In this document: in pieces, positions 14,962 to 48,720 of the stretch
Layout: each line of letters starts with the position of its first letter
Position numbering within the stretch: position 1 is the first letter of the stretch
Source of the DNA: Stenotrophomonas maltophilia
Lineage (GTDB): Bacteria > Pseudomonadota > Gammaproteobacteria > Xanthomonadales > Xanthomonadaceae
Reading direction: 5' to 3'
DNA length: 64,000 bases
Assembly: GCF_002138415.1 (NCBI RefSeq)
Contig: NZ_CP015612.1
Coordinates: forward strand, 970,001 to 1,034,000
Program-made: the position numbers and the translations under genes
The notes under the pieces: model-generated
Databases searched by the model: none
Seen by the model: only the letters and a program-made list of their open reading frames with translations
Told to the model about the DNA's origin: nothing

Positions 14962-14967
14962 CGGAGT

Positions 14968-15043: not shown

Positions 15044-15058
15044 CTGGCGGAGAGAGGG
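15044..15058. other. Att-like core (site C), junction of elements 1 and 2
   Basis: CTGGCGGAGAGAGGG, identical to site B and to the tRNA-Ser 3' end over 15 bp. It is preceded by a terminator-like hairpin (CCCCTG TAAAAA CAGGGG, 15015-15032). The 130 bp to the right resemble the same stretch to the right of site B. Confidence 0.8.
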
Positions 15059-15208: not shown

Positions 15209-15234
15209 CGGAAACAGGGGGGCCGAGGAAGGAC

Positions 15235-16473
15235 ATGGGATTGATCACGGATGCAAAGGCTCGCAGCCTGAGCCCTGGCGGTCAGGCTGTCCCGCACGGA
15301 GGCATAACTGGCCTGACGCTGCATCCGTCGCCCTCACAGAAGGGGCAGGGTAAGTGGGTGCTGCGCTACGTCAGTCCTGCCACGGGCAAGCGACGCAACG
15401 CCGGCTTGGGTGCCTACCCCGAAGTTGGGATTGCTCTGGTGGGTAAACTGGCGCGAGAAATGCGCGAGCAGATCGCGAGTGGGCAGGATCCGTTGGAGGT
15501 TAAGGCGGCTGACCACGCTAAGCCGAAGACACCGACCTTTCAGGAAGCAGCGGAGCTACTCCACGCGGAACTAAAGCCCGGGTGGAAGAATCCCAAGCAC
15601 GCACAGCAGTGGCTTAATACGCTGACTGAGTACGCGTTTCCACGGATTGGCTCCCTTCCCATCGACCAGTTGCAACCGCGGCACGTTGCGGATGTCCTCC
15701 GCCCCATCTGGCTCGACAAGGCAGAGACGGCAAGTCGCGTGAAGCAACGGCTACACGCGGTAATGGCGTGGGGTTGGGCGCACGGATTTAACCAAGCCAA
15801 CCCGGTCGATGTCGTAACACATCTGCTTCCGCTGCAGCCGGGAAAGTCTGTCCGGCAGGAGCATCAGCCAGCAATGCCCTGGGCGAAGCTTCCATCGTTC
15901 GTGAAAGCAGAACTTGCAGGAGCTGGCGAGTACGAAGTCACGCGAAATGCTTTGCTGTTCCTGATCCTGAATGCCAGTCGTTCCGGCGAGGTGCGCGGGA
16001 TGACGTGGGCGGAAGTGAACCTTCGCGCGAAGCTGTGGACGATTCCTGCTGCTCGCATGAAGGCCAAACAGCCTCATCGAGTGCCATTGTCGGAACAGTC
16101 CGTCAAGCTGCTCAGGCGCCAGGAAGGCCATCACGACGAACTTGTCTTTCCCTCTGTGCAGGCTCGTTCGGTCATGTCGGACATGACGCTCACAGCCTTG
16201 TTGCGGAGAGCGAACGCACCGAGCGACACGCCTGGGCGTATTGCGACCGCCCACGGCTTCCGCTCGAGCTTCCGCGACTGGTGCAGCGAGCAAGGCTATG
16301 CCCGTGACCTGGCAGAGCGGGCGTTGGCGCATACGGTCAAGGACAAGGTCGAGGCCGCCTACCACCGCACAGATCTCTTGGAGCAACGTCGTCCGATGAT
16401 GCAGGCCTGGGCCGACTTTGTTCACCCACCTGCAAAGAAGCCCAAGAAGGATGCCTCGCCGCATGACGCCTGA
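15235..16473 (+). CDS. P4-type tyrosine integrase (integrase 2)
   Basis: 412 residues, the same length as integrase 1 and very similar throughout. It has the DUF4102 N-terminal domain (ITDAKARSLSPGGQAV), Arg I in NASRSGEVRGMTW, HGFRSSFRDW, ALAH and the nucleophile Tyr in AAYHRTDLLEQRR. It is preceded by GAGGAAGG. It is the likely integrase of element 2 and would act at tRNA-Ser(GGA). In both elements the integrase lies at the att copy away from the intact tRNA. The accessory gene overlaps its last 11 nt. Confidence 0.95.
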   Translation: MGLITDAKARSLSPGGQAVPHGGITGLTLHPSPSQKGQGKWVLRYVSPATGKRRNAGLGAYPEVGIALVGKLAREMREQIASGQDPLEVKAADHAKPKTPTFQEAAELLHAELKPGWKNPKHAQQWLNTLTEYAFPRIGSLPIDQLQPRHVADVLRPIWLDKAETASRVKQRLHAVMAWGWAHGFNQANPVDVVTHLLPLQPGKSVRQEHQPAMPWAKLPSFVKAELAGAGEYEVTRNALLFLILNASRSGEVRGMTWAEVNLRAKLWTIPAARMKAKQPHRVPLSEQSVKLLRRQEGHHDELVFPSVQARSVMSDMTLTALLRRANAPSDTPGRIATAHGFRSSFRDWCSEQGYARDLAERALAHTVKDKVEAAYHRTDLLEQRRPMMQAWADFVHPPAKKPKKDASPHDA

Positions 16474-17623
16474 ATCGCCAGCCATTCGAGTCCGGCCCTT
16501 AGCCAGCATGCTTGACGGGAACGACCCTGTTGAGTTCGTTCACAGGCTCCTTGAGGCTGGATACGACAGGTTCTACGTCAAGGTCCCGAAGGGATTTCGG
16601 GTCAGCCTTCTCTCCATTGACCCCTTTCCTCCTGGGTACCAGCTTCTGTGGCCCCAGAAGTCAACCCAAGGTCCCGTGCGGGCTGATGGCAATCAGGCCC
16701 AGATACGGTATTTGCAGCTCGATACATCGCAGTTGCGTGACGTTCTCGAATATCCCCCCATCGCATTGCACCAATTCAGTGCGGGAGGTCTGGAATCCGC
16801 GTTGACGCACGATGGCATTCCCTCAATCGATTTCAAGTATCGAAAGGGTTTGCTGGGTTTCCTCTTGCCCACCGAGCGGGCCATCGCCGACAAGGTGCCA
16901 ACCGAGTTTGATGCCAGCTCGGGTGCTCCTGTGGTCGTGAAGACGTTGAATCGCATCAGAAGCCAGTATTCGTACATTCTTCACGGGGTCAGTTTCAAGG
17001 ATGTTTTCGTTGAGGCGCCCGCACTTAGTGACGCCTTGGAAAGCACGCCGACTGCTAAGGATGTGCTTGTGCCAGCCTGTGGAGATGCGCCGGATGACCC
17101 CTATGGGCTGAAAGATTCGTCGTCATTGGTATACGAGATCCTCCGCAAAGCCTATCGAAATCGAGGGAGGGCGCGCAGTGAGATCGATGCGCCATCGCTT
17201 GCGGCAGAATTTCGAGAGTTGAATGCCGGCTACAAGAAGAATCCCAAGCCTTTCAACGACGGTCGGCATGAGTTCGCGGCGACGCTCGCCAACCCCGGCT
17301 ACAACTATTCGTCCGAGGGCCTTGGGGAGATTGATCTTCCCGAAGAGGCCGTAGAGGTTCCGGCGGATACATTCCTCGATCAGGATTTCATCAATCACAA
17401 GCTCAGAAAACTCCTATATGCCGCCTGCCGTTGGAGTGGTGCTAAGGAACCAGGACTCGGCGGCGATCGGGAAAAATTGGTGGATCTCTTGGTTGGTCTT
17501 GGCTTCTTTGACCGGGAAGACAGTGATCAGGTGCAGTCGTTGGTTTACTTCATCACCGGTGAAAAGTACCGGCGCAACAAGCACAAGAGCGACTTTAGGC
17601 ACATCCGCAGCGATCGAGGGTGA
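16463..17623 (+). CDS. Integrase-linked protein of unknown function (copy 2)
   Basis: 386 residues from ATG 16463, overlapping integrase 2 by 11 nt exactly as copy 1 overlaps integrase 1. No domain recognised. The C-terminal part is nearly the same as copy 1 (DDPYGLKDSSSLVYEIL, NPKPFNDGRHEFAATLANP, LLYAACRWSGAKEP, FFDREDSDQVQ, then a basic tail KYRRNKHKSDFRHIRSDRG). The central 60-220 region differs. The basic tail could bind nucleic acid; that is a guess. The next gene, the giant helicase, starts 96 bp downstream on the same strand, so they may be one operon. Confidence 0.82.
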   Translation: MTPESPAIRVRPLASMLDGNDPVEFVHRLLEAGYDRFYVKVPKGFRVSLLSIDPFPPGYQLLWPQKSTQGPVRADGNQAQIRYLQLDTSQLRDVLEYPPIALHQFSAGGLESALTHDGIPSIDFKYRKGLLGFLLPTERAIADKVPTEFDASSGAPVVVKTLNRIRSQYSYILHGVSFKDVFVEAPALSDALESTPTAKDVLVPACGDAPDDPYGLKDSSSLVYEILRKAYRNRGRARSEIDAPSLAAEFRELNAGYKKNPKPFNDGRHEFAATLANPGYNYSSEGLGEIDLPEEAVEVPADTFLDQDFINHKLRKLLYAACRWSGAKEPGLGGDREKLVDLLVGLGFFDREDSDQVQSLVYFITGEKYRRNKHKSDFRHIRSDRG

Positions 17624-17719
17624 CGCCAAGCCGGGGATGGGTAACGCGCACACCCGGTCATTTTCCATTTCGCCAAGACTTTGGGAGACGCGTGTGTGCC
17701 AGCAAGGGGATGAACAATC

Positions 17720-20700
17720 ATGAGCACGCTGGCCGACCAGCTGAAGACATTGGGCTTACAGCCGACCGAGCGAGAGGTTGTGGACACTAGGAAGACCAAT
17801 TCCAAGACCGGTGGTCGGCCGCTAGGATCTGGTAAGAAGCCACAATCTGATGAGGGAATGCTCTTCTTGAAGCTGCCACGCTTCGGAACTGTGGCCAGGC
17901 TCGACGAAGAACGGGGCTTCGGCTTCATCTCTGGTGGCGCGCGCGAGGACGTGTTCTTCCACTTCAGGGGATATCCGGGCCGGCTACCTGACGGAAGAAA
18001 GCTTCCCCCTGTGGGATCGCAGGTGCTTTTCATTACGGGCAGCGACCCACGGCGTCCACACGAGCCCAAGAAGGGTGCAGTCTTGTGGGCGCCCGTCGAA
18101 ATCTCTTCAGCTTCGCTAGGGAATGCGCCCACGGATCAGACATCTGTGGACGCTTTGCGGCGCAAGCGCCTAGGTGAGTTGCCGCGGGATGCGCTGTGGG
18201 GCCTGTTTGAAACAGCGTGGTACGCGAAGCCGTGGGGTGGAAATGCGCCGGCACCCACCGACCTGGAAGACGAGGTACTGGGACAGGTCGTCTGCGAACG
18301 TCTGGCCGAGATGTCGCCGGCTGATCTGGAAGCACATCAGGTCAGTAGCCGGCTGGCGAAGTCGCACTACCAGTTTGCTGCCTGCCTGTCGCCAGGCAGC
18401 CCGGCTTGCGCGTTCACGCGGATGCTGGAAGTGTTCGAGCCAGCACAGCTGGCCGTGCTGGGGACACCAGACCCCTCGTGGATTCAACGCCAGAGGCTTT
18501 CTCCGGACGCCCGCTCCCGCCTCCTTGAATGGCACCTGCTCAGCCGGGCCTTGTCGAAACCGCGTGGCAACTGGGAGTCCTGTTTCCCAGGAGCCGAGGC
18601 ATCCGAGGTCGAGCTGGCAACGCGTTTCCTGGCCTACGACATCCCGCGGGATGCGTTCATCGATGCTTGGCTGGACAGGATCGTGCGTAACGGATTGCTG
18701 TCCGAAGTACAGGCTGAAGCGTGGGCGGACCGTAATCTCGATCTATCGGTTTCGCTGTTTCATCGACTTCCAGCCGCGCGCCAGGTTTCTCTGGTGTCAG
18801 GGTGGCGGAAGAATCCGGCAGGGCTGGACAAGCAACTCCAACAGGAACCATCACGTGCAAGGACGCTGCTTACCGCTGCGTCACTGGCGTTTGACCTGGA
18901 AACCGACGGTAAGCGCATCTGGGAAATCGGCTGCGCACGCAACGGACAGGCCAGCCTTCTTCACGATGAGCGTAGCGGGACCGACCTGGATGTGGCCATG
19001 GCCGACCTGGGGCAGCGAGTCCACGCTGCGCCATTGGTGGTAGGTCACAATGCCCTGGCATGGGACTGGCCGATTGTTGCCCGCTACATCGCGCCGACTT
19101 CGGTGCCATTGATCTGGGACACGTTGCTCATCGGGTACCTTCTGGAGCCGCAGGCGGCGTCGCACGCGCTCGGTGGGCGGCATCATGCGGACCGGGATGC
19201 ACTTGACACTTTGCAGCGGTTCAAGCGACAGCTAGAGGGCCTGCCTGAAGATATTGCACGCAGGGTGTTGATCGGCGAGTTCACCGATTCTGCCCGACTG
19301 CTGGATGCGGTCATTGAGGCCCAGCGGGGCGTCCGCGATTTTGCCCGAGAGTTCCCGGGCTTCATGACCGCGGAGGGAAGCTCGCCTGCGAAGCTGGTCG
19401 TCGTGCCCGAGAGCAGGCTCGGGGAGATCGACTGGGTTCCGGGCGCGTCGGTGGTCTCGGCGGACCCCAGCGAAGGGCTGGCGGCCGAGTGGCGGGAAGT
19501 TGACGTTGCCTTGCTTAAGAAGGCCCTGCCGGCAGACGCCGCGTCCGACCCGGCTGCTCGGGTCCTGGTGGCTGTTGGGGAGCAGGCTGCCGCGCAGGGC
19601 ATCGCGCTGCGGCGGAACATGATTCCGGTCTGGCTGCTTGAACGTGACGCCCGCCTGCGGTCGGCGGTCGACATGGCGTGCGTAGTGCCGAAGGCCGGTT
19701 CGGGCTGGCGTATCGCGTCGTTGCCCGCCAGCGTTGACTGGTGGGCCAGCAGGGATCCATCGTCCTGCGTGGTGACCGGGCTCAGCGATGATGTTCTCGT
19801 GCTCGATCGACGGAAGGTTGCGCAAAGCGATGTTGCGCAGATGCTGGGTGAAATGCCCGCAGCGCCATTCATGCGTATCGGTGAAACCGGATCTGCGTTG
19901 CGATGGTTGCTCGTCGACCGTGCCGCACACGTGCTCGACTCTCGAGGAGGTCTGGCTGCATTCACGACGCTCCCCGTCAGCGATGCGGCGATAGTTCGTG
20001 CCGAGGGCGCGCCGGTTCCGTCATGCCGTCCGAAGGTTGCAACGCGGCGCCATCACGTGTTGCATCCGCGGGCCGAGGACCAGGGCAGCTACTGGGCCGA
20101 GGTGCTTCGTACGTTCAAAGAAGTGGCGACGTTTGGAGCGGGAACCGTTCCGATTCTCCTGATTGCGAGTACCCAAAGCGAGGCGCTGCGTGATCTATTG
20201 ACAGTTGGGCTGGCGGAGATCGGGCTTGGTGAGGTGAAACCGGAACACCGCAGCCAACGTGAACACATGCTTCGCGCCTCGAGTGGTGGCCTCGCGCTGG
20301 TCGACGTGGTCGACCAGTGGCCCGTCTGGCAATCGCTTGCCCAGTCGGCAGGCGTGGTGCTGCAACCTGTGGTCGAGGCACTGCCGATCGAGGAGTGGCA
20401 TGCCTGTGCGGAGACGCGCATTGCCGCGCAGGCAGGTTGTGATTCTGGGCAAAAGACCGAGAAGGCGGGCGGCGCCACCGTCGTTAGTGGCGCTGCTGTA
20501 CTTGAGTCTGCGCCTGCCTTGTTGCGGGCCCGGTTGCATGGATGGATGGCCGATGTGGGGCTGTCAGCGTCGCAGCTCCCCACCATCCTTATTGATCCGC
20601 GCGTGGGCGACATGGCCAAGGGGCTGTCGAACTTGGCGGACTCGTTCCAGCTTGTGGAGACGCCATTCCTGGCTGAGCAGGCGCAACGGTTGGAGCTTGT

Positions 20701-23700
20701 GTTGTCGCCGTTCAAGCTGGTGCGAGAGGTGGCTCCTTCCGGCATCGAGGCTATGGAACGCTTCCTGGTGGCGAACTGGCAGCCTCGAAGCGGGGGCGGT
20801 GGGAATCGCGTCACCGGCTTCAAGCCGTCGCAGAAGATTGCGATGGAAGCCATCTGCGAACGCTCCGCTAATGTTCTCGTCTCGTTGCCGACGGGCGAGG
20901 GCAAGTCGGTGCTGTTTCAAGTTCCCGCGCTCTGCCGTGGCCTACGCAATAGACGGCTGACATTGGTCATCTCGCCGTTGAAGGCCTTGATGCGGGATCA
21001 GGTGGAGCGCCTGCGGGAGCAGGGTTTCTCCGAGTCAGTCGACTATCTGAGCGGTGATCGACCGCCGAGCGAGATCGCCGAAGTGATCCAGGGCGTACTC
21101 GATCATCGCATCGTGCTGCTGTATGTCGCGCCAGAGCGGACACGCAGCAGTGTTTTCCTCGATGTGCTTCACAAACGCATGCAAGCTGACAAAGGCTTGG
21201 AGCATGTAGTAGTGGATGAAACCCATTGCGTGAATCAGTGGGGATACGAGTTCAGGCCGGACTACTTTCATGCGCTGAATCTGTTGCTGCGCATGTGTCG
21301 TGCAATGGATTTGAGTGAGCCGACGCCTTTCCTGTTGCTGTCGGCAACGATCACCGCGTCCGACAGGGTCCGTTTGCAGGCCGTCATGTCCGGAGATTCC
21401 GGAGAGACGGGATCTCCACTGCCGCTCTTGGCAAGGCCGGACTCGTTCTCCAATCCATTGCGAACGCATATTGCCGTTGAGCCGCGTCGTGTGCGTGGCA
21501 TGCTCAACGACCGGCGGAACTTTGACAAGGCACTGGCGGAGCGTCTGCCTCACATCGAAGAAGCCGTATCGGCGGCACGGCGCAACCGGGCGTCGACGGG
21601 TCAACGTAGTGCCGTCATAGTTTTTGTATCCAGCCGATACCACGCGGAGGTCGTGGCGCAGCGGCTTGCCCGGGCCACCAGCGGTCAGGTCGACTACTAC
21701 CATGCGGGCTTGGATGCAGGCTCGCGGGAAGAGATCTACACGCGCTTTCTTGACGGTGACCTTGATGTCCTAGTGGCGACGAAGGCCTTCGGCATGGGCA
21801 TGGATATTCCGGACATCCATTGGGTCGTGCACCTTGCACCGCCGGGATACATCGAGGACTACCTGCAGGAGGTTGGCCGGATCGGGCGCGGGGAGCGGGA
21901 GCGTAAGAATGCGCAGCTCGAAAAGCTTTCCGCCACGCTGCTATTCTCGGATCAGGACTTCGAGTCGATCCGGGGTTTGCGGGCGCGCAGCGCCCTATCC
22001 CTTCCAATCATCAGGGATCTCCACGAAAAGGTGTGCGAGCACGCATACCAGGTGGATGGCCAGCAGCTCGCGATCGTTCCTGCCGAGGGCTACGGCACGC
22101 CACAGAACCCCGTGGGGCAAAGTCCGGCCGCCAGACGCGCGGCCGCGACGCGAGTCAGAATGGGGCTGTACTGGCTCGAACGGGCCGAACGCGTCCGCCT
22201 GTGCGGTTCCGTCCCGGATCTGATTGAGGTGACTGCCTACCCGTCCTCGCTTGAGCGGATATCCCAGGAGGATGGTTTGGCTGCTGAAGTAGCCGGTTTG
22301 ATTCTTAAAATTGGTTCGGTGGACACTTCGCTTGCAGGTGCATCCCTTGGAGGCGGCTCCGTTTTTGGCGCTTCTCCAACCCCGGCAGGACTTCTCGGCG
22401 GCACGATCGACGTGCTCGGACGGCTGTTTTCCAGCTTGTCCGACACGGTGGGCATGCTATTCGATGGCTCGGCAAGAACTCCGGCGCGGTCGCTTCCAAG
22501 CCCACGTCCCGCACACGCCGGGTTGTCGAGCGGTGAGGCCGCCACGGCAAAGACGGTGATTCTCAATCTCTCCCAGATCAAGCTGCGCAGCAGTGCGATC
22601 AAGTCGATGGGAGATGTGCTGGCAGTCCTAGGCGACCTCGAAAAGCGTGGGGCTGTATCGCTGAATCGCGAGATTGACGTTGTTCCGCGCAAGCTTGCAT
22701 CTGAGCCATCCACCAAGATCAGCGAGCTCTTCCAGTACGTCGATGGCGGAGTAGCCGAACTCATACGCCGGCTCGCGAAGAACGGACGAATCGAGTTCAA
22801 TCCGTTTGAGATGGTCGAGGACGTAGAGGGGCCGCGGGTCGGCGATGACAAGCGCCGGATGTATGAAAGATTGTTCATTAACGGCTTCAGAAGCCTTGCG
22901 CGTGCATCCGGAGTCAAGCTTCGCCAACTGGTTCGGGCCGACGATAAAGTCATCTGGGAGGCAGTGCTTCCGCGGGCGTCATGGTCCAAAGCAGATTCCA
23001 GACGGCAACGTTACCTGCAGGGGGCGAAGTCCCTGTTCGCGGTCGTCGTCAACCAGAGATCGATCCCGATTTCGAAGATTGTGGATCAGCTACGTGCCGG
23101 AAGCCATGACGGCCGTTTCCGCGAATCTGACTTGAACAAGGTGACGGGGCTTCTGTCGGCAATGAGCCTTGTCAGCATTTCGCCGGAGTTGGTTCCGCTG
23201 TCACATGTCGTAGCGGTGTCCGATGCCAATGGCAGGCTTGAGGATCAGTCGGATATCTGGGACGAGCTCAGGCAGGTCAATGAACTTGCAGAGGCACGAA
23301 ATCTGGCAATGGAGGTGTTCGCAAACGTGAACACCGATGCCCATCCGGCCTTCATAGAAGGGTATTTCGATACCGCGGATGGGCCTGCGATCAGGCACTT
23401 CCTTGATTCGCAACTCGGTGAAATAGTCAGCGAGGATCCGGACGGTCCCTCCACCTTGCTCTTAGAGATGCAGGAAAAACTCCGAGCCACGAAAGCGGTT
23501 GAGTTCTTCGAGAGATTCAGGGTCTCGGAGGAATCGGCGCAATGGGAGGTGGTCAAGGCACCGTTCGACCAGCACATCATGGTCAACGCGGGTCCAGGGG
23601 CTGGCAAGACCTTTGTCCTTGTAGGAAGAATCGCGCACTTGATCCGGGAGCAGAACATCGATCCCTCGCAAATCATCGTGCTTGCGTTCAACCGCGCAGT

Positions 23701-25411
23701 CGTCTTTGAGATCAGGCGACGGATTCGCGAGCTATTCAAGTCGCTGGGCTATGCAGCCTACGCAGGGCGCCTGCGTGTCTCGACCTTCCACTCCTTGGCC
23801 ATGCGGACCCTGGCGCGGGAGGGGGTTGAGATTACTAGAAACAATATGCAAACCCTGCTGTCAGATTTTGCCAGTCGGCTGTCGAAAGATCCTTTGTTCG
23901 CCCAGAGGGTAGCCGGCGGCGCACGTTGTGTCCTTGTGGATGAATTCCAGGACGTGACGGATGACGTGTATCAGGTCATCAAAAACCTCCACGCCGGCAG
24001 CGGGTCCCGGGCAGGGGTCATGGTGATTGGTGATGACGACCAGGACATCCTGCGCTGGCAGCGGAAGAATGATGGTAGTGCTCATCAGTTTTCCGAGAAG
24101 TATTTTGATAAGTTTGCGAGTGATTTCGGGAGAGGCAGTTTCCAGGAGTTTCTGCTGGGCGTGAATTTCCGATCTGGCGAGAGCATCGTCGAGCGCAGCC
24201 AGCTGATGATCTCAGGGTTCTTCGAGCGCACGAGCCGCTCCCGGCGCCTGAAGACATCCCGGTTGAGACCACGCATGGGAGCGCCGGAAGGGGCGTGCCA
24301 GGCCATCGAGTGGAGCGGCCGAACGTGGGGCGAGGCGGTAGAAAGCACCGCATCGTTGCTGACGGAGCTGGCCGGCCGCGAATGCGAGTCGACTGCCGTG
24401 CTCTGTCGTTCGAATGCTGAGGTCGCTGAAGCGCACAGGCTGTTGAGCCAGGGGCAGCCGAGACTGAGGGTGCAAGGGGGCGCCAATCTGCGCGTAGCCG
24501 ATCTACGGCACGTGGCGATCTGGTTGGACCATCTTCGGGAGGCGGCTGCCAAAGGCGACGCCGCACTTTCAGAGGATTTGCGGCGAGAGATCTTCAACCG
24601 GACGGTGCAAGCTGGAGGTGTTCCGGAATACTCCAGGCCGGCTACGTCCGACGTCACGCTGGACGATCTGTGGGAGCTGTGCTGCCGCGAGCGTTCATTC
24701 CCCCATCTTTCCTCGCTCGTTCAGTTTGTCGATGAATTGAGAACCGATGAACTCGTGCGGTTGCTGGGGACGGTAGATGAAGCGTCAACGGCAGTAGTTT
24801 CGACACTGCACAAGGTGAAGGGGCTTGAGTTCGACAACGTAGTAATTCTGCCGTCGATGATTCAGTTCGGCGTTGCAGGGTGGGATCGACTGGGACCGGA
24901 TCTCCAAGGCGATGCCGCGGAAGAGGCGCGGCTGCTGTATGTGGGAATGACCCGGGCCAAGAGGAATCTGACGTACTACCGCGGTGATCGCGAGCGGAGC
25001 TGGGGAAGGAAGGATCCTGTGCCGTATGACGGCCTGCGCACAGACGGCCAGGTGTTGATCGGTTCAATGGAGGATGTCTCGCTCGGTTGGGCCATGCAAC
25101 GCAACGCATTCAACCCAACTCCGGATGAGTGTCAGCGCTATATCGAGACTGAAGTCGCGATAGGTGATCCAATCGTGCTTGGCGGGCGGGGGGGCGGTGC
25201 GTTCAAGTCCTTCATGCATCGAGGGAGTTCAGGACAATTGACACAGGTCGGCTTTCTTGCGAAGCAACATGTAGTCGGCGGACCGAATGCTTCGCTGAAA
25301 GTCAGCGCGGTCCTGCGGTTCCGGCCGGACTCAATCGACGAGACGCTGGCAGACTGTGTTCGTGATCGTGGCTGGGGGTACGTTGTGCTTGTTTCGGGGC
25401 GCCTCCGCTGA
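17720..25411 (+). CDS. Giant fusion: cold-shock domain, DEDDh exonuclease, RecQ helicase, UvrD helicase
   Basis: 2563 residues in one open frame. Residues about 54-120 form a cold-shock domain (FGTVARLDEERGFGFISG, EDVFFHF). Residues 388-500 form a DnaQ-like exonuclease with D392/E394 in FDLETDG, HNALAWDWP at 443 and HHADRD at 488. Residues about 1030-1500 form a RecQ helicase: Walker A LPTGEGKS at 1056-1063, box II DETH at 1166 in VVDETHCVNQWGYEFRPDY, motif VI QEVGRIGRGERER near 1383. Residues about 1945-2430 form a UvrD/Rep helicase: GPGAGKT near 1960, VDEFQD at 2073, GDDDQDIL, NFRSG, HKVKGLEFDNV near 2362, LLYVGMTRAKR near 2405. RBS AAGGGG precedes the ATG. Each part acts on DNA; joined, they suggest an unwinding-and-degrading machine for foreign or damaged DNA. 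The combined function is inference. Confidence 0.92.
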   Translation: MSTLADQLKTLGLQPTEREVVDTRKTNSKTGGRPLGSGKKPQSDEGMLFLKLPRFGTVARLDEERGFGFISGGAREDVFFHFRGYPGRLPDGRKLPPVGSQVLFITGSDPRRPHEPKKGAVLWAPVEISSASLGNAPTDQTSVDALRRKRLGELPRDALWGLFETAWYAKPWGGNAPAPTDLEDEVLGQVVCERLAEMSPADLEAHQVSSRLAKSHYQFAACLSPGSPACAFTRMLEVFEPAQLAVLGTPDPSWIQRQRLSPDARSRLLEWHLLSRALSKPRGNWESCFPGAEASEVELATRFLAYDIPRDAFIDAWLDRIVRNGLLSEVQAEAWADRNLDLSVSLFHRLPAARQVSLVSGWRKNPAGLDKQLQQEPSRARTLLTAASLAFDLETDGKRIWEIGCARNGQASLLHDERSGTDLDVAMADLGQRVHAAPLVVGHNALAWDWPIVARYIAPTSVPLIWDTLLIGYLLEPQAASHALGGRHHADRDALDTLQRFKRQLEGLPEDIARRVLIGEFTDSARLLDAVIEAQRGVRDFAREFPGFMTAEGSSPAKLVVVPESRLGEIDWVPGASVVSADPSEGLAAEWREVDVALLKKALPADAASDPAARVLVAVGEQAAAQGIALRRNMIPVWLLERDARLRSAVDMACVVPKAGSGWRIASLPASVDWWASRDPSSCVVTGLSDDVLVLDRRKVAQSDVAQMLGEMPAAPFMRIGETGSALRWLLVDRAAHVLDSRGGLAAFTTLPVSDAAIVRAEGAPVPSCRPKVATRRHHVLHPRAEDQGSYWAEVLRTFKEVATFGAGTVPILLIASTQSEALRDLLTVGLAEIGLGEVKPEHRSQREHMLRASSGGLALVDVVDQWPVWQSLAQSAGVVLQPVVEALPIEEWHACAETRIAAQAGCDSGQKTEKAGGATVVSGAAVLESAPALLRARLHGWMADVGLSASQLPTILIDPRVGDMAKGLSNLADSFQLVETPFLAEQAQRLELVLSPFKLVREVAPSGIEAMERFLVANWQPRSGGGGNRVTGFKPSQKIAMEAICERSANVLVSLPTGEGKSVLFQVPALCRGLRNRRLTLVISPLKALMRDQVERLREQGFSESVDYLSGDRPPSEIAEVIQGVLDHRIVLLYVAPERTRSSVFLDVLHKRMQADKGLEHVVVDETHCVNQWGYEFRPDYFHALNLLLRMCRAMDLSEPTPFLLLSATITASDRVRLQAVMSGDSGETGSPLPLLARPDSFSNPLRTHIAVEPRRVRGMLNDRRNFDKALAERLPHIEEAVSAARRNRASTGQRSAVIVFVSSRYHAEVVAQRLARATSGQVDYYHAGLDAGSREEIYTRFLDGDLDVLVATKAFGMGMDIPDIHWVVHLAPPGYIEDYLQEVGRIGRGERERKNAQLEKLSATLLFSDQDFESIRGLRARSALSLPIIRDLHEKVCEHAYQVDGQQLAIVPAEGYGTPQNPVGQSPAARRAAATRVRMGLYWLERAERVRLCGSVPDLIEVTAYPSSLERISQEDGLAAEVAGLILKIGSVDTSLAGASLGGGSVFGASPTPAGLLGGTIDVLGRLFSSLSDTVGMLFDGSARTPARSLPSPRPAHAGLSSGEAATAKTVILNLSQIKLRSSAIKSMGDVLAVLGDLEKRGAVSLNREIDVVPRKLASEPSTKISELFQYVDGGVAELIRRLAKNGRIEFNPFEMVEDVEGPRVGDDKRRMYERLFINGFRSLARASGVKLRQLVRADDKVIWEAVLPRASWSKADSRRQRYLQGAKSLFAVVVNQRSIPISKIVDQLRAGSHDGRFRESDLNKVTGLLSAMSLVSISPELVPLSHVVAVSDANGRLEDQSDIWDELRQVNELAEARNLAMEVFANVNTDAHPAFIEGYFDTADGPAIRHFLDSQLGEIVSEDPDGPSTLLLEMQEKLRATKAVEFFERFRVSEESAQWEVVKAPFDQHIMVNAGPGAGKTFVLVGRIAHLIREQNIDPSQIIVLAFNRAVVFEIRRRIRELFKSLGYAAYAGRLRVSTFHSLAMRTLAREGVEITRNNMQTLLSDFASRLSKDPLFAQRVAGGARCVLVDEFQDVTDDVYQVIKNLHAGSGSRAGVMVIGDDDQDILRWQRKNDGSAHQFSEKYFDKFASDFGRGSFQEFLLGVNFRSGESIVERSQLMISGFFERTSRSRRLKTSRLRPRMGAPEGACQAIEWSGRTWGEAVESTASLLTELAGRECESTAVLCRSNAEVAEAHRLLSQGQPRLRVQGGANLRVADLRHVAIWLDHLREAAAKGDAALSEDLRREIFNRTVQAGGVPEYSRPATSDVTLDDLWELCCRERSFPHLSSLVQFVDELRTDELVRLLGTVDEASTAVVSTLHKVKGLEFDNVVILPSMIQFGVAGWDRLGPDLQGDAAEEARLLYVGMTRAKRNLTYYRGDRERSWGRKDPVPYDGLRTDGQVLIGSMEDVSLGWAMQRNAFNPTPDECQRYIETEVAIGDPIVLGGRGGGAFKSFMHRGSSGQLTQVGFLAKQHVVGGPNASLKVSAVLRFRPDSIDETLADCVRDRGWGYVVLVSGRLR

Positions 25412-25475
25412 GGTTCGCTAGATTCCTAGCAGCGTAACCACGGCTCCTGCGTGCTCCCCGGGGCGTGTCAAGAGA

Positions 25476-25497
25476 AAGGGCCGGCAAGCCGGCCCTT
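25476..25497. terminator. Bidirectional terminator
   Basis: AAGGGCCGGC / AA / GCCGGCCCTT between the convergent giant helicase and Gp2-like genes; A-rich on the left (AGAGAAA), so it would also serve the minus strand. Confidence 0.75.
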
Positions 25498-25519
25498 CGT
25501 CTGGAAGCAAGATTTGAGG

Positions 25520-26803
25520 TCACTTTTTCAGCAACTCTCGATCAATGGCTGATGTGTCCAGGCCGCTGCTCCTGGGCGCGCCACGGCCGCTGTGACCCTT
25601 CGGCATGATTCCCTTGCGCAGGTTGCGGATCCCCTTCTTGCTCGCGGTGTCGGCGTCCTCGTCGCCTGCCAGGGACTTCGGCGGGCTGGGTTTGAGCTGC
25701 GTGGTTTCCTTGCACAGGTACTCGATCGCCAGGCGCAAGCCGCGCAGCTTGTCAGTGTCCGTCGGATGGATCAGACCCAGGCAGTTGAAACGGTACTGGT
25801 CCGTCCGGGTGTAGCAGTTGAAATAGCTCGCCTTGGCCTTCTTGCCCGTCTCGCCGACATCCACCCCATCCTCGTACTCTCCATGGCCGCAGCGGCGGAC
25901 CCAGTCCTCTCCGACCATGCGGGTCAGATTGGCCGCATCACGGTGCTTGTGCCCGTCCAGGACAATGAGGACGTGAAAGTGGATGCCACGATCGATCCCG
26001 TCCTCGCGCTTGCTGATGTAACCGAGGACGTCGGGAACGATTCGATTTTCGCGCAGAGCACGCAGGAACCTCGCGTAGTGGCCATCCGCTTCGCGAGTGT
26101 AGCCCCAGCCCTTGAACGCCGGGCGGAAGTAGAGATCAACCCGTAGGATCAGCAGCTGCGAACGACGCTGGAACTGGGCTGCCAGATACTCGCAGCAGCT
26201 GGCGATGTTCTTCTCTTCGTTGCGCTTGTAATTGTCGACTTCGTCCTTGTAGGCCTGGCTCCGACATGATGCGCGGATGGAAGCAGCCGCGTTCTCGAGA
26301 ATCTCACGCGTTCGTGGATCAATCAGTACCGGATCGCCGTTACGGGTGTGAGCCCAGAGCTCAGGCGAACACTGGTCGACGACCTTCAGCATAACGGTCA
26401 GGGGAGGATTAAAGCGGTGGTGCTTGTAGTACTCCGCACTGTCTTGGTTGTAGCCCTTGCATACATTGAAGAATGCCTTGCCGATCTTGGTCAGCTGATA
26501 CCACGGCTGCCCCCTTCGATCGTGCGTCACTTCAATCGGCTGATCATCGCTCCGGGCGATGGCATCGACGAGTTTCTCTGCTCGGAGCAGCCAGTAGATG
26601 AAGTTGTGCTCCTGCCCAACATAGGTGTGCCCGTAGCGTTGACTGGTCTTACGTACGAAGAGGTGGTGTTCCCGCTCTGCCGAGGGCACCAGGGTAGCCT
26701 TAGACTCGGGGGCGATGGAAAGGTTGGGCACCTGCTCCTTGAGCAGGTCACAGTCGAAGGCGATTGCCGGGGTGTACGAGGTGGTCTGACTGATCTCATT
26801 CAT
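25520..26803 (-). CDS. Inovirus-Gp2-like (YagK/YfjI, DUF3296-type) replication protein
   Basis: 427 residues. The central part carries YFRPAFKGWGY, YISKREDGIDRGIHFHVLIVLDG and, further on, SYFNCYTR, typical of inovirus-type Gp2 / YagK family proteins. The IHFHVL element is an HUH-type metal-binding pair, and a Tyr-containing helix follows, as in rolling-circle replication initiators. The expected role is to nick and start replication of the circular form of the element. It lies downstream of an AlpA gene on the same strand, separated by a terminator-like hairpin (26903-26931). The N-terminal 150 residues are less conserved. No attached helicase domain is present. Confidence 0.82.
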   Translation of the reverse strand: MNEISQTTSYTPAIAFDCDLLKEQVPNLSIAPESKATLVPSAEREHHLFVRKTSQRYGHTYVGQEHNFIYWLLRAEKLVDAIARSDDQPIEVTHDRRGQPWYQLTKIGKAFFNVCKGYNQDSAEYYKHHRFNPPLTVMLKVVDQCSPELWAHTRNGDPVLIDPRTREILENAAASIRASCRSQAYKDEVDNYKRNEEKNIASCCEYLAAQFQRRSQLLILRVDLYFRPAFKGWGYTREADGHYARFLRALRENRIVPDVLGYISKREDGIDRGIHFHVLIVLDGHKHRDAANLTRMVGEDWVRRCGHGEYEDGVDVGETGKKAKASYFNCYTRTDQYRFNCLGLIHPTDTDKLRGLRLAIEYLCKETTQLKPSPPKSLAGDEDADTASKKGIRNLRKGIMPKGHSGRGAPRSSGLDTSAIDRELLKK

Positions 26804-34176: not shown

Positions 34177-35088
34177 ATGTCGAACGAACAGCTTGCAGAT
34201 CTAACCCAGCCACAACGCGACCGGCTCGCGTTTGTGGAGTTGCGCGTGCGCTTCATCGGGGAGATACGCCGCCAGGACTTGGTCACGCGGTTTGGCATCC
34301 AGTCCGCCGCCGCATCCAGGGATCTGGCGCTGTACAAGGAGTTAGCCCCGGGCAACATCGATTACGACTCCAAGGGCAAGTCCTACGTCCTGGGGCCGGA
34401 CTTCCGGCCGGTCTTCGACTTCCCCCCGGAGCGGGTGCTGTCGTGGCTGACCCAGGGCTTTGGCGACGGCGAGCCGATGCGACTCAAGGTGTGGGTGGCT
34501 AGCGAAAGCCCCTCACGGCTTACACACCCGGATCTCGATGTGCTGGCCAGCGTGACCCGGGCGATCCATCAGGGGTGTCCGCTCCGCGTCGAGTACTACT
34601 CAATATCTAGCGGCTGTACTGAGCGGGAAGTCGTCCCCTTTGCGCTGATCGACAACGGCCTGCGCTGGCATGTCCGCGCCTTTGACCGGAAGTCTCAGGA
34701 GTTCCGGGATTTCGTCATCACCCGGATCAAGAACCCTGTCGTGCTCAAGGGGCAGCCAGTTGCAGCCCATGAGATGAGCGATCAAGACATCCAGTGGACG
34801 CGGATCGTCGAACTGGAGTTGGTGCCGCACCCGGATCAGCCCCGGCCGGAGATCACCGAAATGGATTACGGCATGCGCGACGGCGTGCTGCGGATGAAGC
34901 TGCGCGCTGCCACGGCTGGATACATCCTGCGCAAATGGAGTGTGGACTGCTCCCCGGATCACAGCTTGCGCGGATACGAATTTCGGCTCTGGTTGAGGGA
35001 CCACCTAGCGCTTTACGGCGTCAAGAATGCGGTGTTAGCGCCGGGCTATGCAGCACCGGGGCGAGAGTTGGATGGAGGTCAGGGTTGA
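34177..35088 (+). CDS. WYL-domain transcriptional regulator (BrxR/CapW-like)
   Basis: 303 residues with three parts. A winged helix comes first (RLAFVELRVRFIGEIRRQDLVTRFGIQSAAASRDLALY), then a WYL domain near residues 120-195 (IHQGCPLRVEYYSISSG, VPFALIDNGLRWHVRAFD), then a C-terminal WCX-like domain. This layout is that of BrxR/CapW regulators, which repress phage-defence operons and are thought to sense a signal through the WYL domain. Its stop overlaps the TTG start of the SNF2 gene (TTGA), so it is the first gene of the operon it probably controls. The promoter and candidate operator are just upstream. Confidence 0.88.
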   Translation: MSNEQLADLTQPQRDRLAFVELRVRFIGEIRRQDLVTRFGIQSAAASRDLALYKELAPGNIDYDSKGKSYVLGPDFRPVFDFPPERVLSWLTQGFGDGEPMRLKVWVASESPSRLTHPDLDVLASVTRAIHQGCPLRVEYYSISSGCTEREVVPFALIDNGLRWHVRAFDRKSQEFRDFVITRIKNPVVLKGQPVAAHEMSDQDIQWTRIVELELVPHPDQPRPEITEMDYGMRDGVLRMKLRAATAGYILRKWSVDCSPDHSLRGYEFRLWLRDHLALYGVKNAVLAPGYAAPGRELDGGQG

Positions 35089-38012
35089 TCTCCGCCTACC
35101 ACGCCAAGTACTACGCCCACGAGCTGACGCGGCGACACGCCGCCGATGGCGTTGATCGCCTCTCCCAATCGCTGTTCGATGCCAGCGTCGATCTGAACCC
35201 GCATCAGATCGAGGCGGCGCTGTTCGCACTTCGGAACCCGTTGCAGGAAGGCGTGCTGCTGGCCGACGAGGTTGGGTTGGGCAAAACCATTGAAGCCGCG
35301 CTGGTGGTTTGCCAGTACTGGGCTGAGCGCCGTCGTCGGCTGCTAGTCATATGCCCGGCTAGCCTGCGCAAGCAATGGGCGCAGGAGCTGCACGACAAGT
35401 TCGCCGTGCCCACTACCGTGGTGGATGCCGTTTCTCTGCGCAAGCAGTCCGCCGGCGACATGCTCGCCACCCTGCAGCGGCAGGTTGGCAAGGCGGTCGT
35501 CATCATGTCCTATCAGTTTGCCGCCAAGCTGGAAGCCGAGCTGCGTGCAGTTCCTTGGGATGTAGTGGTCATCGACGAAGCGCACAAGCTGCGCAATGCG
35601 CACCGCGCCAGCAACCGCACCGGGCAGGCGCTCAAGCGTGCGCTGCAAGGCCGCAAGAAGCTTCTGCTCACTGCCACGCCGTTGCAGAACTCGCTGATGG
35701 AGCTGTACGGCCTGTCGACGCTGATCGACGAACACATGTTCGGCGACGAAGCTGCCTTCCGCAAGCAATTCATGAACAGCGGAACGGGGCTTGACGAACT
35801 GCGTGAGCGCCTTGCCAGCTTCGCCAAACGGACACTGCGCCGTGACGTACTGGAGTACATCAAGTACACCGAGCGCAAGGCACTCACCCAGCCATTCAAC
35901 CCGACTGACGACGAGCAGGCGCTATACGAGCGCATCTCGGCCTTTCTGCAAAAGGAAGACTCCTACGCCCTGCCCAAGCAGCAGCGCCACCTCACGGCAC
36001 TGATCCTGCGCAAGCTGCTGGCCTCCAGTGCGCCTGCCGTCGCGGCCACGTTGGTCACCATCCGCGAGCGCCTGCAAAACCTGCTGGCGGCAGGCGCGAC
36101 GGAAGACGACGGCACGGAACTGGTCGAACAGCTCATTGCCGAGGACGACTTGGAGCAGGACTCCCTGGAGGAGGAAGCCGGCGAGGCAGAAGAAAACGCC
36201 GAAGTCCCGACGCCTGCGCCAGCGGAAGACGACAAGACGGGCGCTGTAAAAGATGCGCATGCCGTCCGCGCCGCCATCAGCGCCGAGATCGCGGAGCTGA
36301 CTGCGTTCATCGATGCTGCCCAAGCCCTGCAAACCGACACCAAGGCACAGGCGTTACTCAAGGCGCTCAAACTGGGCTTCGGCAAGATGGCCGAGCTGGG
36401 CGCGCCACGCAAAGCCATCATCTTCACGGAATCCCGGCGCACGCAGGAGTACCTGCACCGCTTCCTCTCGGCCAACGGTTACGCAGGCAAGCTGGTGCTG
36501 TTCAGTGGCACCAACACCCACGAGGAATCCATCGCCATTTATCAGCGCTGGCTGGAGGAGCACAAAGGCACGGACCGCGTCACCGGCTCGCCGCAGGTGG
36601 ATCGCCGCACCGCGTTGATCGACCACTTCCGCAAGGACGATGGCACCGGCGCGGAAATCATGATCGCCACCGAAGCGGCTGCCGAAGGCGTCAACCTGCA
36701 GTTCTGCGCGCTGATCATCAACTACGACCTGCCGTGGAACCCGCAACGCGTCGAGCAGCGCATTGGCCGCTGCCACCGCTACGGCCAGCGTTTCGATGTG
36801 GTGGTCATCAACTTCCTCAACACCCGCAACCAGGCCGACCAGCGCGTGCTGGAACTGCTCACCGAGAAATTCAACCTGTTTTCCGGCGTGTTCGGGGCGA
36901 GCGATGAAGTGCTGGGCCGTGTCGAGGGCGGCATCGACTTCGAGAAGCGTGTGCTCCAGATCTACGACACCTGCCGTCAGCCCGAGCGGATCGAAGCCGC
37001 CTTCAACGCCCTGCAAGCCGAGCTGGAAGAAGTCATCGCCGACCGCATCAAAGACACCCAATCCCAGCTGCTGGAGAACTTCGACCAGGACGTTCACGAC
37101 CGCCTCAAACTGCGCCTTCAGGACGCCGAAGCGCGGCTGGACAAGCTGGGGCGCTGGTTCTGGGGTGTCACCTGCTTTGCATTGGACGGCCGCGCGCGCT
37201 TCGACGAGCAGTCCTACGCGTTTTCTCTGAGCACGCCGCCAACTGGAATCGCCACAGGTCGCTATCAGCTCATTCGCGGTGCGGCGCAGCCCGACATGCT
37301 GGCGCACGCCTACCGCCTCAGCCACCCGCTGGGGGAATGGAGCATTGATGCCAGCCTGAACGCGGCCACGCCCGTCGCCACATTGAAGCTCGACTACGGC
37401 AAATACGGCGCACGCATTTCCGTGGTCGAGAACCTGCGCGGCAAGTCCGGCTGGCTGACGCTGGCCCGGCTGGAAGTCACCGCATTCGAGACCACCGAGG
37501 CGCTGCTGTTCTCTGGCAGCACTGACGATGGTCAGGTGCTGGATCAGGAAGCCTGCGAAAAGCTGATGGCCATTCCAGCAGCAGGCAAACCCACTCCTTT
37601 GAGCACCAATGTGCCCGAGACACTGCTGGCCAACAGCCAGCGCGCAGTCGCTGCCACCATCGCCCAGGTACTGGAAGCCAACCAGCGCCTCTTCAATGAA
37701 GAACGGGACAAACTGGAACGCTGGGCCGACGACAAGCTGCTGGCCGCCGAGGAAGCCCTGAAGAACACCAAGGCGCGCATTGCACAGTTGAAGCGTGACG
37801 CCCGCAAGGCCGCCACCTTGCAGGAGCAGGACGGCATCCAGCGCGAACTGTCTGAGCTGGAGCGCAAGCAACGCCGTCTGCGGCAGGAGATCTTCGCCGT
37901 CGAGGACGAAATCATCGCCAAGCGCGACGAATTGATTGCCTCGCTCCAGCAGCGACTGCAAGAAAAGACATCCAGCGAAACCCTGTTCAGCATCCGCTGG
38001 CAGGTATCGTGA
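35085..38012 (+). CDS. SNF2/SWI2-type helicase-like ATPase
   Basis: 975 residues if the TTG at 35085 is the start; GGAGG lies 6 bp before it and it overlaps the regulator stop by 4 nt. SF2 motifs of the SNF2/RapA group are clear: LLADEVGLGKT (61-68), CPASLRKQW, VIDEAHKLRN (DEAH at 164-167), LLTATPLQNS, ATEAAAEGVNLQFC and RIGRCHRYGQ. Residues about 335-390 are a Glu-rich linker. The last 150 residues are a long coiled coil (LEELERKQRRLRQEI type). Such ATPases move along double-stranded DNA and occur in several defence systems. Its stop and a GTG (38009) overlap, but the next gene probably starts at 38048. Confidence 0.9.
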   Translation: MISAYHAKYYAHELTRRHAADGVDRLSQSLFDASVDLNPHQIEAALFALRNPLQEGVLLADEVGLGKTIEAALVVCQYWAERRRRLLVICPASLRKQWAQELHDKFAVPTTVVDAVSLRKQSAGDMLATLQRQVGKAVVIMSYQFAAKLEAELRAVPWDVVVIDEAHKLRNAHRASNRTGQALKRALQGRKKLLLTATPLQNSLMELYGLSTLIDEHMFGDEAAFRKQFMNSGTGLDELRERLASFAKRTLRRDVLEYIKYTERKALTQPFNPTDDEQALYERISAFLQKEDSYALPKQQRHLTALILRKLLASSAPAVAATLVTIRERLQNLLAAGATEDDGTELVEQLIAEDDLEQDSLEEEAGEAEENAEVPTPAPAEDDKTGAVKDAHAVRAAISAEIAELTAFIDAAQALQTDTKAQALLKALKLGFGKMAELGAPRKAIIFTESRRTQEYLHRFLSANGYAGKLVLFSGTNTHEESIAIYQRWLEEHKGTDRVTGSPQVDRRTALIDHFRKDDGTGAEIMIATEAAAEGVNLQFCALIINYDLPWNPQRVEQRIGRCHRYGQRFDVVVINFLNTRNQADQRVLELLTEKFNLFSGVFGASDEVLGRVEGGIDFEKRVLQIYDTCRQPERIEAAFNALQAELEEVIADRIKDTQSQLLENFDQDVHDRLKLRLQDAEARLDKLGRWFWGVTCFALDGRARFDEQSYAFSLSTPPTGIATGRYQLIRGAAQPDMLAHAYRLSHPLGEWSIDASLNAATPVATLKLDYGKYGARISVVENLRGKSGWLTLARLEVTAFETTEALLFSGSTDDGQVLDQEACEKLMAIPAAGKPTPLSTNVPETLLANSQRAVAATIAQVLEANQRLFNEERDKLERWADDKLLAAEEALKNTKARIAQLKRDARKAATLQEQDGIQRELSELERKQRRLRQEIFAVEDEIIAKRDELIASLQQRLQEKTSSETLFSIRWQVS

Positions 38013-38047
38013 AATCAGCATCAGAAATTGCGAGATCAGGGAACGCC

Positions 38048-41000: not shown

Positions 41001-41167
41001 TCAACCCGGCGGACAACGAGTTCGACGTGGTCTACATCAATGGCGACCACAACATTCCCACCGTGCTGACGCAGACGGCCGAGGAAGGCGGCGCCACCCG
41101 CGTGCTCAAGCTGCGCCAGATCGAGCCGGAGTTTCTGGAGCGCATGTTCTCCGTGGAGGACATCTGA
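38048..41167 (+). CDS. Adenine-specific DNA methyltransferase (type III Mod-like)
   Basis: 1039 residues from ATG 38048 (AGGGA upstream; a GTG at 38009 is also in frame). Motif IV DPPYNT is at 495-500 and motif I DYFAGSGTT at 775, the order of beta-class N6-adenine or N4-cytosine methyltransferases such as type III Mod. It is longer than typical Mod (about 650) by an N-terminal region of about 400 residues with charged helices. The part between IV and I should hold the target-recognition domain. From about 39400 to 40600 the DNA is clearly AT-richer than both flanks, suggesting exchange of the specificity region. It presumably marks host DNA for the neighbouring helicase-nuclease. Confidence 0.9.
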   Translation: MTHAHNQKFQELVAKLREIFQIDRPELDFGIYRILNARAGEINDYLQNRLAEKVETALSSGNEAQRQQVARELKEKEAQYQADGIDPGTVPKVKELREKLAQYTAGASEHESAVFSHLLTFFSRYYEQGDFISQRRYKGDTYAIPYAGEEVMLYWANKDQYYTKSGENFSNYRFKLDDGRSVHFRLSAADTAKDNRKDNDKERRFVLAQHKTVTRVDENGDEYEEDILPVEEIATADGQTELVIRFEYAAQPKGTKQEALVTKAVETVLADAAVKARWLALGNRAPTEKNPQRSLLEKHLTNYTTKNTADYFIHKDLGGFLRRELDFYVKNEVMHLDDVQNAGAFADIEKNLRMIQCLRSIALELITFLAQLEDFQKKLWLKKKFVVSSHYCITLDRVPEALWPEVVANAQQWARWKLLGVWDGDAPGTVEDLKAAQYRMVDTALFNDDFKHRLLANIDDIETGLGGVVINGDNFQALNLAKYRYRASIDFTYIDPPYNTVHSKIAYKNQFEHSSWLALISNTLPFTRDLFGEVYSFGFAIDDYEYNNAFHCLKGHFTECDVSTIVINHHPQGSGGRLSRTHEYYIVASPKDAPQYLGFPKEDETEDRQFMRSGTADNNYRAPRGGGVGRWRSFYALLVDPSTKKVVGAEPPPPLGTDYPTGPTAEGLQRIYPINTTGEERVWRSSYETGKVRAANGELIVTDRGAVKQLIDHQDKRETLFSNWIGADFNAGTNGTNVLDSLGLGGIFDYPKSVKTLEQSFWMQSFGKANFTVLDYFAGSGTTAHATISLNRQDNESRKYVLVEQGEYFETVLKPRIQKVVFSADWAGGKPTSLEAGISHCFKAIKLESYEDTLNNLQLRRTSAQGDLLNTLPQQAKDDYLLNYLLDVESRGSLLSVDDFKKPFDYTLNVAVDSAGAFEPRKIDLVETFNFLIGLRVKHIDAQPQRGFVTVTGTLPSGESCLVLWRDCDVLDYEGISKLCDKLAINPADNEFDVVYINGDHNIPTVLTQTAEEGGATRVLKLRQIEPEFLERMFSVEDI

Positions 41168-44562: not shown

Positions 44563-44614
44563 GCGATTCGCTAGTTTCCAGCTTTGGCATTGAAGAACTT
44601 AGAGAAGACGAGAT

Positions 44615-48700: not shown

Positions 48701-48720
48701 CTGGCGGAGAGAGGGGGATT
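48701..48720. other. Attachment core (site D), right end of element 2
   Basis: CTGGCGGAGAGAGGGGGATT, the intact 3' end of tRNA-Ser plus one base, the same as the cores at 4361 (20/20), 4551 and 15044 (15/15). Confidence 0.75.

Follow-up and report, generated by a model that had tools for sequence, protein, structure and literature searches.

The subject of this work is a single gene of Stenotrophomonas maltophilia (assembly GCF_002138415.1, contig NZ_CP015612.1), which lies in a stretch of 64,000 nucleotides (positions 970,001 to 1,034,000) referred to here as the window and numbered from its first letter. The gene occupies 17720-25411 of the forward strand as a single uninterrupted open reading frame (ORF) of 2563 codons, and its product is called the giant in the following. 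In its own genome it is present once, at full length and free of stops. According to domain searches and predicted structures, this one chain combines an OB-type cold-shock domain, an intact DEDDh exonuclease and two intact helicase motors, of RecQ and UvrD type. These four modules had been proposed in an earlier note made from the letters of the window, and they were confirmed by the ORF, by family searches and by models; what that list had overlooked is a probable decayed module of DinG type. From the N to the C terminus, the order is cold-shock domain, helical region, exonuclease, probable degenerate DinG-like module, RecQ, winged-helix-like linker, UvrD and C-terminal beta domain:

17720..25411, forward strand: giant gene, 2563 residues (ORF, domain searches, models, homologues, and the ratio of nonsynonymous to synonymous substitution rates, dN/dS)
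17870..18094, forward strand: cold-shock (OB) domain, residues ~51-125 (Pfam CSD, profile and Foldseek matches)
18095..18871, forward strand: helical region, residues ~126-384 (mostly helices in the model; predicted local distance difference test, pLDDT, mostly 78-92 by block)
18872..19339, forward strand: DEDDh 3'-5' exonuclease, residues ~385-540, with D392, E394, D449, H488 and D493
19340..20815, forward strand: probable degenerate DinG/XPD-like helicase module of superfamily 2 (SF2), residues ~541-1032
20816..22039, forward strand: RecQ-type SF2 helicase, residues ~1033-1440, with K1062, DETH 1166-1169 and R1387/R1390 (domain searches, alignment, dN/dS)
22040..23524, forward strand: linker with apparent winged-helix units, residues ~1441-1935 (secondary structure of the model)
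23525..25069, forward strand: UvrD/Rep/PcrA-type helicase of superfamily 1 (SF1), residues ~1936-2450, with GPGAGKT 1958-1964, DEFQD 2074-2078 and R2412 (Pfam, Foldseek)
25070..25408, forward strand: C-terminal beta-rich domain, residues ~2451-2563, five strands (model)

Domains and catalytic residues of the giant

The cold-shock domain matches Pfam CSD (E 4.6e-5, 23.7 bits, under the curated cut-off of 27), CspB in a profile search of PDB (E 1.7e-4) and, by Foldseek, the CspB-RNA complex 3pf4 (TMt 0.83, E 5.8e-3). DEAD and Helicase_C domains of RecQ type are found at residues 1036-1390 (Pfam, NCBIfam), and N- and C-terminal UvrD domains at residues 1939-2418 (Pfam E 1.1e-33), a part for which Foldseek returns Rep (1uaa, E 1.1e-17). 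The predicted structures were made in halves, from an alignment of 19 rows per half. On their basis the linker is tentatively named winged-helix-like and the C-terminal beta domain may be of Tudor or SH3-like type, while no fold was assigned to the helical region at ~126-384, which the VIA fold search barely probed.

Fourteen catalytic positions were checked in an alignment of 129 near-full-length rows, consisting of the window, 16 loci and 112 listed proteins over 2300 residues (8 of the 120 listed homologues were left out, and some loci duplicate listed proteins). Thirteen of them are invariant, being present in 129/129 rows: D392, E394, D449, H488 and D493 of the exonuclease; K1062, D1166, E1167, R1387 and R1390 of the RecQ motor, in which Walker A, DExH and motif VI are thus intact; and K1963, D2074 and E2075 of the UvrD motor. 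The remaining one, R2412, is kept in 127 rows, with gaps in the other two. In an alignment with two N-terminal halves from Bacteroidota, none of these five exonuclease residues varies either. Because these catalytic positions are kept in the 129 rows, both motors and the nuclease should be functional. The residues listed in the earlier note proved accurate for D392/E394, K1062, DETH at 1166, GPGAGKT and DEFQD at 2074; its H489/D491 has to be replaced by H488/D493, which form the HxxxxD motif.

Comparison of the gene with an 89%-identical relative (locus L010) gave a dN/dS of 0.19 overall, with values of 0.06 for RecQ, 0.12 for UvrD, 0.27 for the exonuclease and 0.33 for residues 541-1032. Purifying selection is strongest in the two motors, RecQ being the most constrained part.

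The module that follows the exonuclease lacks ATPase motifs and probably represents a dead helicase of DinG type. This assignment draws mainly on one Foldseek match, in which the best fold match of residues 379-981 is DinG from Staphylococcus aureus, because the results of profile and hhalign comparisons are weak or negative. Within residues 541-1032, a Walker A pattern ([GA]x4GK[ST]) appears in only 3 of the 129 rows, in mutually unlike forms, and QxxGRxxR, judged by eye in the alignment, is not retained. No DinG was returned from PDB sequences at E<=1 by a profile built on residues 1-1040. The hhalign probability of 541-1032 against DinG is 2.4%, and the best DinG match of that run was the RecQ part of the giant (89.8%); the DinG profile was narrow, as the homologue search behind it had listed no relatives but close ones. 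The RecA2-like part of 541-1032 reached 3.3%, with a score of 24.1 vs a best of 20.5 in 60 column shuffles. The VIA fold search returned mainly the exonuclease, and therefore both the helical region and 541-1032 were barely probed by it.

A tRNA-Ser element with the giant as one-gene cargo

The earlier note had placed the giant in a mobile element, and this is borne out by att-like repeats at a tRNA-Ser gene, an integrase and a backbone shared with the relative G001. The tRNA-Ser att sites and a cluster of type III restriction genes had gone unnoticed in that island reading. The features around the giant gene are the following:

15044..15058, forward strand: left att-like repeat CTGGCGGAGAGAGGG (repeat search; also adjoins the integrase in G079 and G001)
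15235..16473, forward strand: tyrosine integrase of the carrying element (Pfam Phage_integrase, Phage_int_M, Arm-DNA-bind_3)
16418..17623, forward strand: domain-less integrase-associated protein (ORF as called; relatives point to a start near 16460)
25520..26803, reverse strand: YagK/YfjJ-like replication-type protein, the next backbone gene (Pfam YagK_YfjJ_C, E 4e-4, 20.8 bits, under the cut-off of 25.8)
34794..46450, forward strand: defence-type cargo comprising a DrmD-like SNF2 helicase, a type III methyltransferase, a type III restriction enzyme and a GmrSD-like protein
48701..48715, forward strand: right att-like repeat, at the 3' end of tRNA-Ser(gga) (48702-48794, reverse strand)

Copies of the 15-bp repeat CTGGCGGAGAGAGGG occur at 4361, 4551, 15044 and 48701, and an extra 16-bp piece of the tRNA-Ser(gga) end lies at 4084. 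The copies at 4551 and 15044 each precede an integrase gene with that of the partner protein behind it (at 4742-7103 and 15235-17623, respectively), and the simplest reading is that of two tandem elements, one at 4551-15043 and the other, which bears the giant, from 15044 to about 48715.

The cargo status of the giant is evident from G001, which shares with the window the integrase, the partner, the YagK-like gene and downstream genes at 74-78% DNA identity. There, the YagK-like gene directly follows the integrase partner, and only some 185 bp lie between the ends of their two alignments (positions 17002 and 16817 of the G001 sequence retrieved), whereas in the window 7.9 kb separate the same two backbone alignments (17630 to 25527), a space filled by the giant. 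Since the backbone is shared and G001 merely has a short gap at the place of the giant, the giant is a one-gene cargo of the tRNA-Ser element, present or absent on its own at this site. Among 91 genomes of the genus, the partner was found in three (E<=1e-20) and the giant in two (E<=1e-150).

The integrase partner, which the earlier note had coupled to the giant, was considered as its second component and rejected, because a second integrase-partner pair exists in the window (4742-7103, with the partner copy at 5925-7103 behind the second integrase) and because G001 has the partner without the giant; it belongs to the integrase. No match to the partner was found in Pfam (E<=1), NCBIfam or PADLOC (E<=0.1). 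Its family has 50 homologues, those with names being from Xanthomonas, Stenotrophomonas and Pseudoxanthomonas, and perhaps constitutes an integrase accessory factor.

Regarding the remaining cargo, the genes at 34794-46450 are co-directional, with small gaps or overlaps, and their PADLOC scores are 631.8 bits for DrmD, 1398.8 for MTase_III, 1635.5 for REase_III, and 296.7 and 234.3 for Orf5/HEC-06. The giant-bearing element also holds a YqaJ gene (Pfam) and, by eye, genes for a RadC-like protein (31459-31956) and an ADP-ribosylglycohydrolase-like protein (32140-34080). Elsewhere in the window, a tandem repeat of ~207 bp lies at 1-1000, inside an ORF of the reverse strand (3-2204), and G079, a relative, has more copies of it; a relaxase-like ORF of 238 residues (11744-12460), which by eye we take to be of MobA/MobL type, corresponds to a relative of 513 residues in L010 (2887-4428).

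Homologues of the giant number 257 (E<=1e-3) among 7987 candidate proteins scored, many of them at full length, and 120 of these were listed. A scan of 84,980 species, with one genome per species, gave 24 loci, in taxa from Xanthomonadaceae, Sphingomonadales, Rhodobacterales and Thiohalocapsa to Lentisphaerae, Pontiellaceae and Bacteroidota. In an order-level sample, the giant was present in 1 of 200 genomes, which is its own. It is therefore rare and sporadic within genus and order, yet found in several classes and phyla. A copper-oxidase-like gene, recognised by eye beside the giant in L011 (19887-21740), means that at least one neighbourhood is of a non-defence kind.

Neighbouring genes and the two-gene form in Bacteroidota

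Neighbours were scanned at 21 of the 24 loci (L022, L027 and L028 were left out), with genes called by a simple longest-ORF script that includes some spurious ORFs, and PADLOC was applied to hand-picked neighbours plus the three largest genes per locus. Matches at 1e-40 or better lie near 10 of the 21 loci (L012, L014, L019, L021, L025, L026, L029, L031, L032 and L033). Beside the giant are an Mrr-type enzyme in L012 (4.4e-81), DrmD and DrmMI in L021, ZorD in L025 and a type IIG enzyme in L031. In L014, DruH3 is followed by DruE3 and then, 324 bp further downstream, by the giant; L019 has DruE3, at the edge of the sequence examined, and a type IIG/DrmMI-like neighbour; and in L029 the giant, cut by the contig end, lies 49 bp upstream of a DruE-like gene. 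L032 and L033 were counted via Pfam HsdR and two REase_I members not attributed to a locus. In L026, from Sphingomonas sp. IC081, a PD-Lambda-3_B homologue (15165-15974, 1.4e-80) is found near a partial giant. No PADLOC match at 1e-10 was obtained for 8 of 10 additional picked neighbours, nor any Pfam match for the two upstream ORFs of L013.

A further arrangement was observed beside the giant in L012 (17783-26838), L015 (17789-25352) and L018 (12553-19923), which have in common a cluster that was not recognised as any named system. It encodes an AAA ATPase, which is short in L015, and, downstream of the giant, a WYL regulator, a protein of PD-(D/E)XK type and a UvrD-type helicase that scores as GajB-like in L012. 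Relatives of its AAA and PD-(D/E)XK proteins are present in L016.

A different organisation of the giant itself is found in Bacteroidota. The loci of Nonlabens (L032), Maribacter (L033) and Hymenobacter (L038) have a frame that stops behind the first RecQ lobe, at about residue 1212 of the giant in the window; the next frame shares 4 bases with it and begins at the second RecQ lobe, at about 1236-1245. A sequencing error is unlikely, because the same break and overlap occur in three genera. In L032 and L033, both halves are co-directional and are preceded by a GIY-YIG gene, in the interval from HsdM/HsdS to HsdR, while in L038 the N-terminal part is distributed over further separate frames and the UvrD part has its own frame. 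The type I restriction operons concerned (L032, 899-19554; L033, 2863-20879) thus hold, between HsdM/HsdS and HsdR, the split giant, the GIY-YIG protein and further uncharacterised genes. The description of the giant as a single chain is correct for the window, but it had missed this two-gene form inside type I restriction operons. The copies of L028 and of the Rhodobacter plasmid locus L037 are interrupted at other places and may be broken or misassembled.

Relation to known systems and proposed function

The giant misses the curated cut-offs for RecQ (TIGR01389, 202.8 vs 640.2 bits; TIGR00614, 192 vs 219.8), for UvrD/PcrA/Rep (TIGR01075, 98.5 vs 1144.45; TIGR01073, 114.8 vs 911.2; TIGR01074, 92.4 vs 951.45) and for DpdF in NCBIfam (169 vs 550). 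Orthology to DpdF, RecQ or UvrD was consequently rejected, and the giant is judged from its sequence to hold a RecQ-type motor domain without being a RecQ orthologue. Its best PADLOC matches, the models for DpdF and PsyrT, are confined to the RecQ-like core. No whole-protein model was found in Pfam or among the best 25 rows of NCBIfam and PADLOC, and among the titles and abstract openings listed in the literature searched none describes this architecture, so that the statement of the earlier note that no named defence system is recognisable still stands. As far as these searches reach, the architecture is new and its kind is that of the known helicase-nuclease defences.

Partial parallels exist on several sides. 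WRN, a cellular repair protein, resembles the giant in carrying a 3'-5' exonuclease (in WRN of DEDDy type) ahead of a RecQ motor in the same chain, but lacks a cold-shock domain, a dead DinG module and a UvrD motor. RecBCD, AddAB and AdnAB likewise join two motors to a nuclease, and the UvrD half of the giant also matches the folds of RecB, AddA and AdnB; the giant differs in being one chain, with motors from two superfamilies and a 3'-5' DEDDh nuclease instead of a RecB-type one. To our knowledge, the known helicase-nuclease defences have one motor type per chain or distribute their motors over several subunits. ExoDinG (DinG of S. aureus and Bacillus subtilis) consists of a DEDDh 3'-5' exonuclease, which the giant shares, followed by a DinG/XPD-type helicase fold, which the giant probably has in decayed form; in the giant (2563 vs 897 residues) the DinG-like part is without a conserved Walker A and the RecQ and UvrD motors are added.

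Among defence systems, Hna is reported to be a single-protein 3'-5' single-stranded DNA (ssDNA) exonuclease with an ATPase site that acts by abortive infection (PMC13381803); as far as that description goes, it resembles the giant in coupling an exonuclease to an ATPase. Druantia type III (DruH and DruE) offers another very large helicase-nuclease, which lies near the giant in L014, with DruE alone in L019 and L029 within the sequence examined. DruE is described as a helicase-nuclease engaging replication intermediates that contain ssDNA (PMC13192584) and as a YprA-family helicase (PMC12458937), and neither DruE nor DruH is among the best 25 of the 93 PADLOC rows for the giant. On account of the cold-shock domain, the TOTE conflict systems were weighed, which the same source describes as composed of a TPR-OB protein, a TATA-binding protein (TBP) and an effector (PMC12458937); they were set aside, no search having been aimed at TBP or TPR.

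With a probability of about 0.6, the giant would be a stand-alone helicase-nuclease defence that attacks replicating or recombining foreign DNA. RecQ and UvrD families are 3'-5' motors. The cold-shock domain and winged helices might hold single-stranded or forked DNA, the RecQ and UvrD motors would unwind gapped, tailed or forked intermediates, and the exonuclease would take off the exposed 3' ends needed for primer extension and recombination. The decayed DinG module could serve as a scaffold or gate that couples the nuclease to the motors and spares host DNA, and the outcome would be a block to the replication of an incoming phage or mobile element. That such chemistry can protect cells follows from the reported precedents of Hna and DruE, and the type III restriction, DrmD-like and GmrSD-like genes of the same element were counted as further support. 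The reading in the earlier note, an unnamed fusion in a mobile element, is supported in part, with the rarity of the giant and the restriction or defence genes near 10 of 21 loci on its side, and fails for the coupled partner.

Several results weigh against this defence reading. At the other 11 of the 21 loci, no attributable PADLOC match at 1e-40 or better was found, with part of the neighbours scanned and the matches of the largest-gene scan not attributed. A like-for-like control was made with the three largest genes per stretch (E<=1e-40), its random stretches coming from one genus. The flanks of the family matched 62 models, of which the 25 shown account for at least 10 of 63 proteins, or at least 13 of 63 when DruH3 (L014), a GajB-like protein (L012) and type IIG (L031) are added; the control stretches matched seven models of four names, each with one protein, amounting to at most 7 of 60 proteins. 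By loci, the counts are 9 of 21 for the flanks vs at most 7 of 20 for the control. Known restriction or defence genes lie near homologues at 10 of 21 loci, a score that the earlier note had called for, but the difference in counts from the control is not decisive. The kinds do differ, with Druantia, DISARM, Zorya and type I/IIG restriction in the flanks vs PDC-S06, PDC-S37, Hhe and mad3 in the control. A direct anti-phage link is also missing, because no full-length homologue was found in phage records (2 of 50,697 match, the best over 14% of the query) or in IMG/VR (three loci, with similarity at RecQ level only), results on which the giant was also rejected as a phage-borne gene. Finally, a 3'-5' exonuclease and two 3'-5' motors would not obviously pull together as RecBCD does.

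Part of the same evidence can be read in favour of an accessory DNA-repair enzyme, a bacterial analogue of WRN or ExoDinG that travels on mobile elements and repairs crosslinks or collapsed forks. DNA-damage repair also employs UvrD and RecQ, WRN chains are among the matches to the RecQ part of the giant and share its layout of exonuclease and RecQ, and the exonuclease with its DinG-like part matches S. aureus DinG, reported as necessary for crosslink repair (PMC12345164). This explanation is nevertheless considered unlikely, given that the giant is missing from 89 of the 91 genomes of the genus, that its own genome (the only one examined in this respect) already has separate genes matching RecQ, UvrD and DinG motors, and that the giant is element cargo with restriction or defence genes near 10 of 21 loci. 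Less probable still is a service to the element itself, in which the giant would process replication or transfer intermediates of its carrier or combat competing plasmids, integrative and conjugative elements or satellites rather than phages. Its position between the integrase module and the YagK/YfjJ-like replication-type gene, the two tandem elements at the same tRNA and the two plasmid records with relatives (one in three pieces, covering 94% of the query, the other a Bacteroidota form matched over 17%) are compatible with such a role; however, G001 has the same backbone without the giant, and among called neighbour genes elsewhere, no relative of the integrase or partner was found except in the window and L010.

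The substrate could also be RNA or R-loops, so that the cold-shock domain, the DEDDh exonuclease and the helicases would degrade phage transcripts or RNA:DNA hybrids. Cold-shock domains bind RNA, the CspB-RNA complex 3pf4 is among the matches of the giant, and S. aureus ExoDinG trims single-stranded RNA as well as ssDNA (PMC11981726). As the families that the two motors match are known for work on DNA, and as RecQ is more constrained than any other part of the protein, this is regarded as the least probable of the alternatives, at slightly under one chance in ten.

Returning to a stand-alone defence, a more elaborate proposal can be put forward tentatively, at somewhat less than even odds. The giant would be a new immune machine made of a clamp for ssDNA or RNA, two live motors (RecQ of SF2 and UvrD of SF1) and an ExoDinG with a helicase half degenerated into a regulatory gate, which together destroy foreign forks and recombination intermediates; in two Bacteroidota, it would take the form of two coupled genes, divided within the RecQ motor, in a type I restriction operon, where restriction cuts might feed it 3' ends.

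Helicase-nucleases figure prominently in bacterial immunity, and the giant represents a conserved chain in which motors of both SF1 and SF2 are joined to a 3'-5' exonuclease and to an apparent dead third helicase. Its exonuclease-RecQ part provides a bacterial comparison for the layout of WRN. The place of the Bacteroidota form in type I restriction operons raises the testable idea that a restriction cut is passed on to strand degradation, and the giant as a whole offers a direct test of how a destroyer of DNA spares the DNA of its host.

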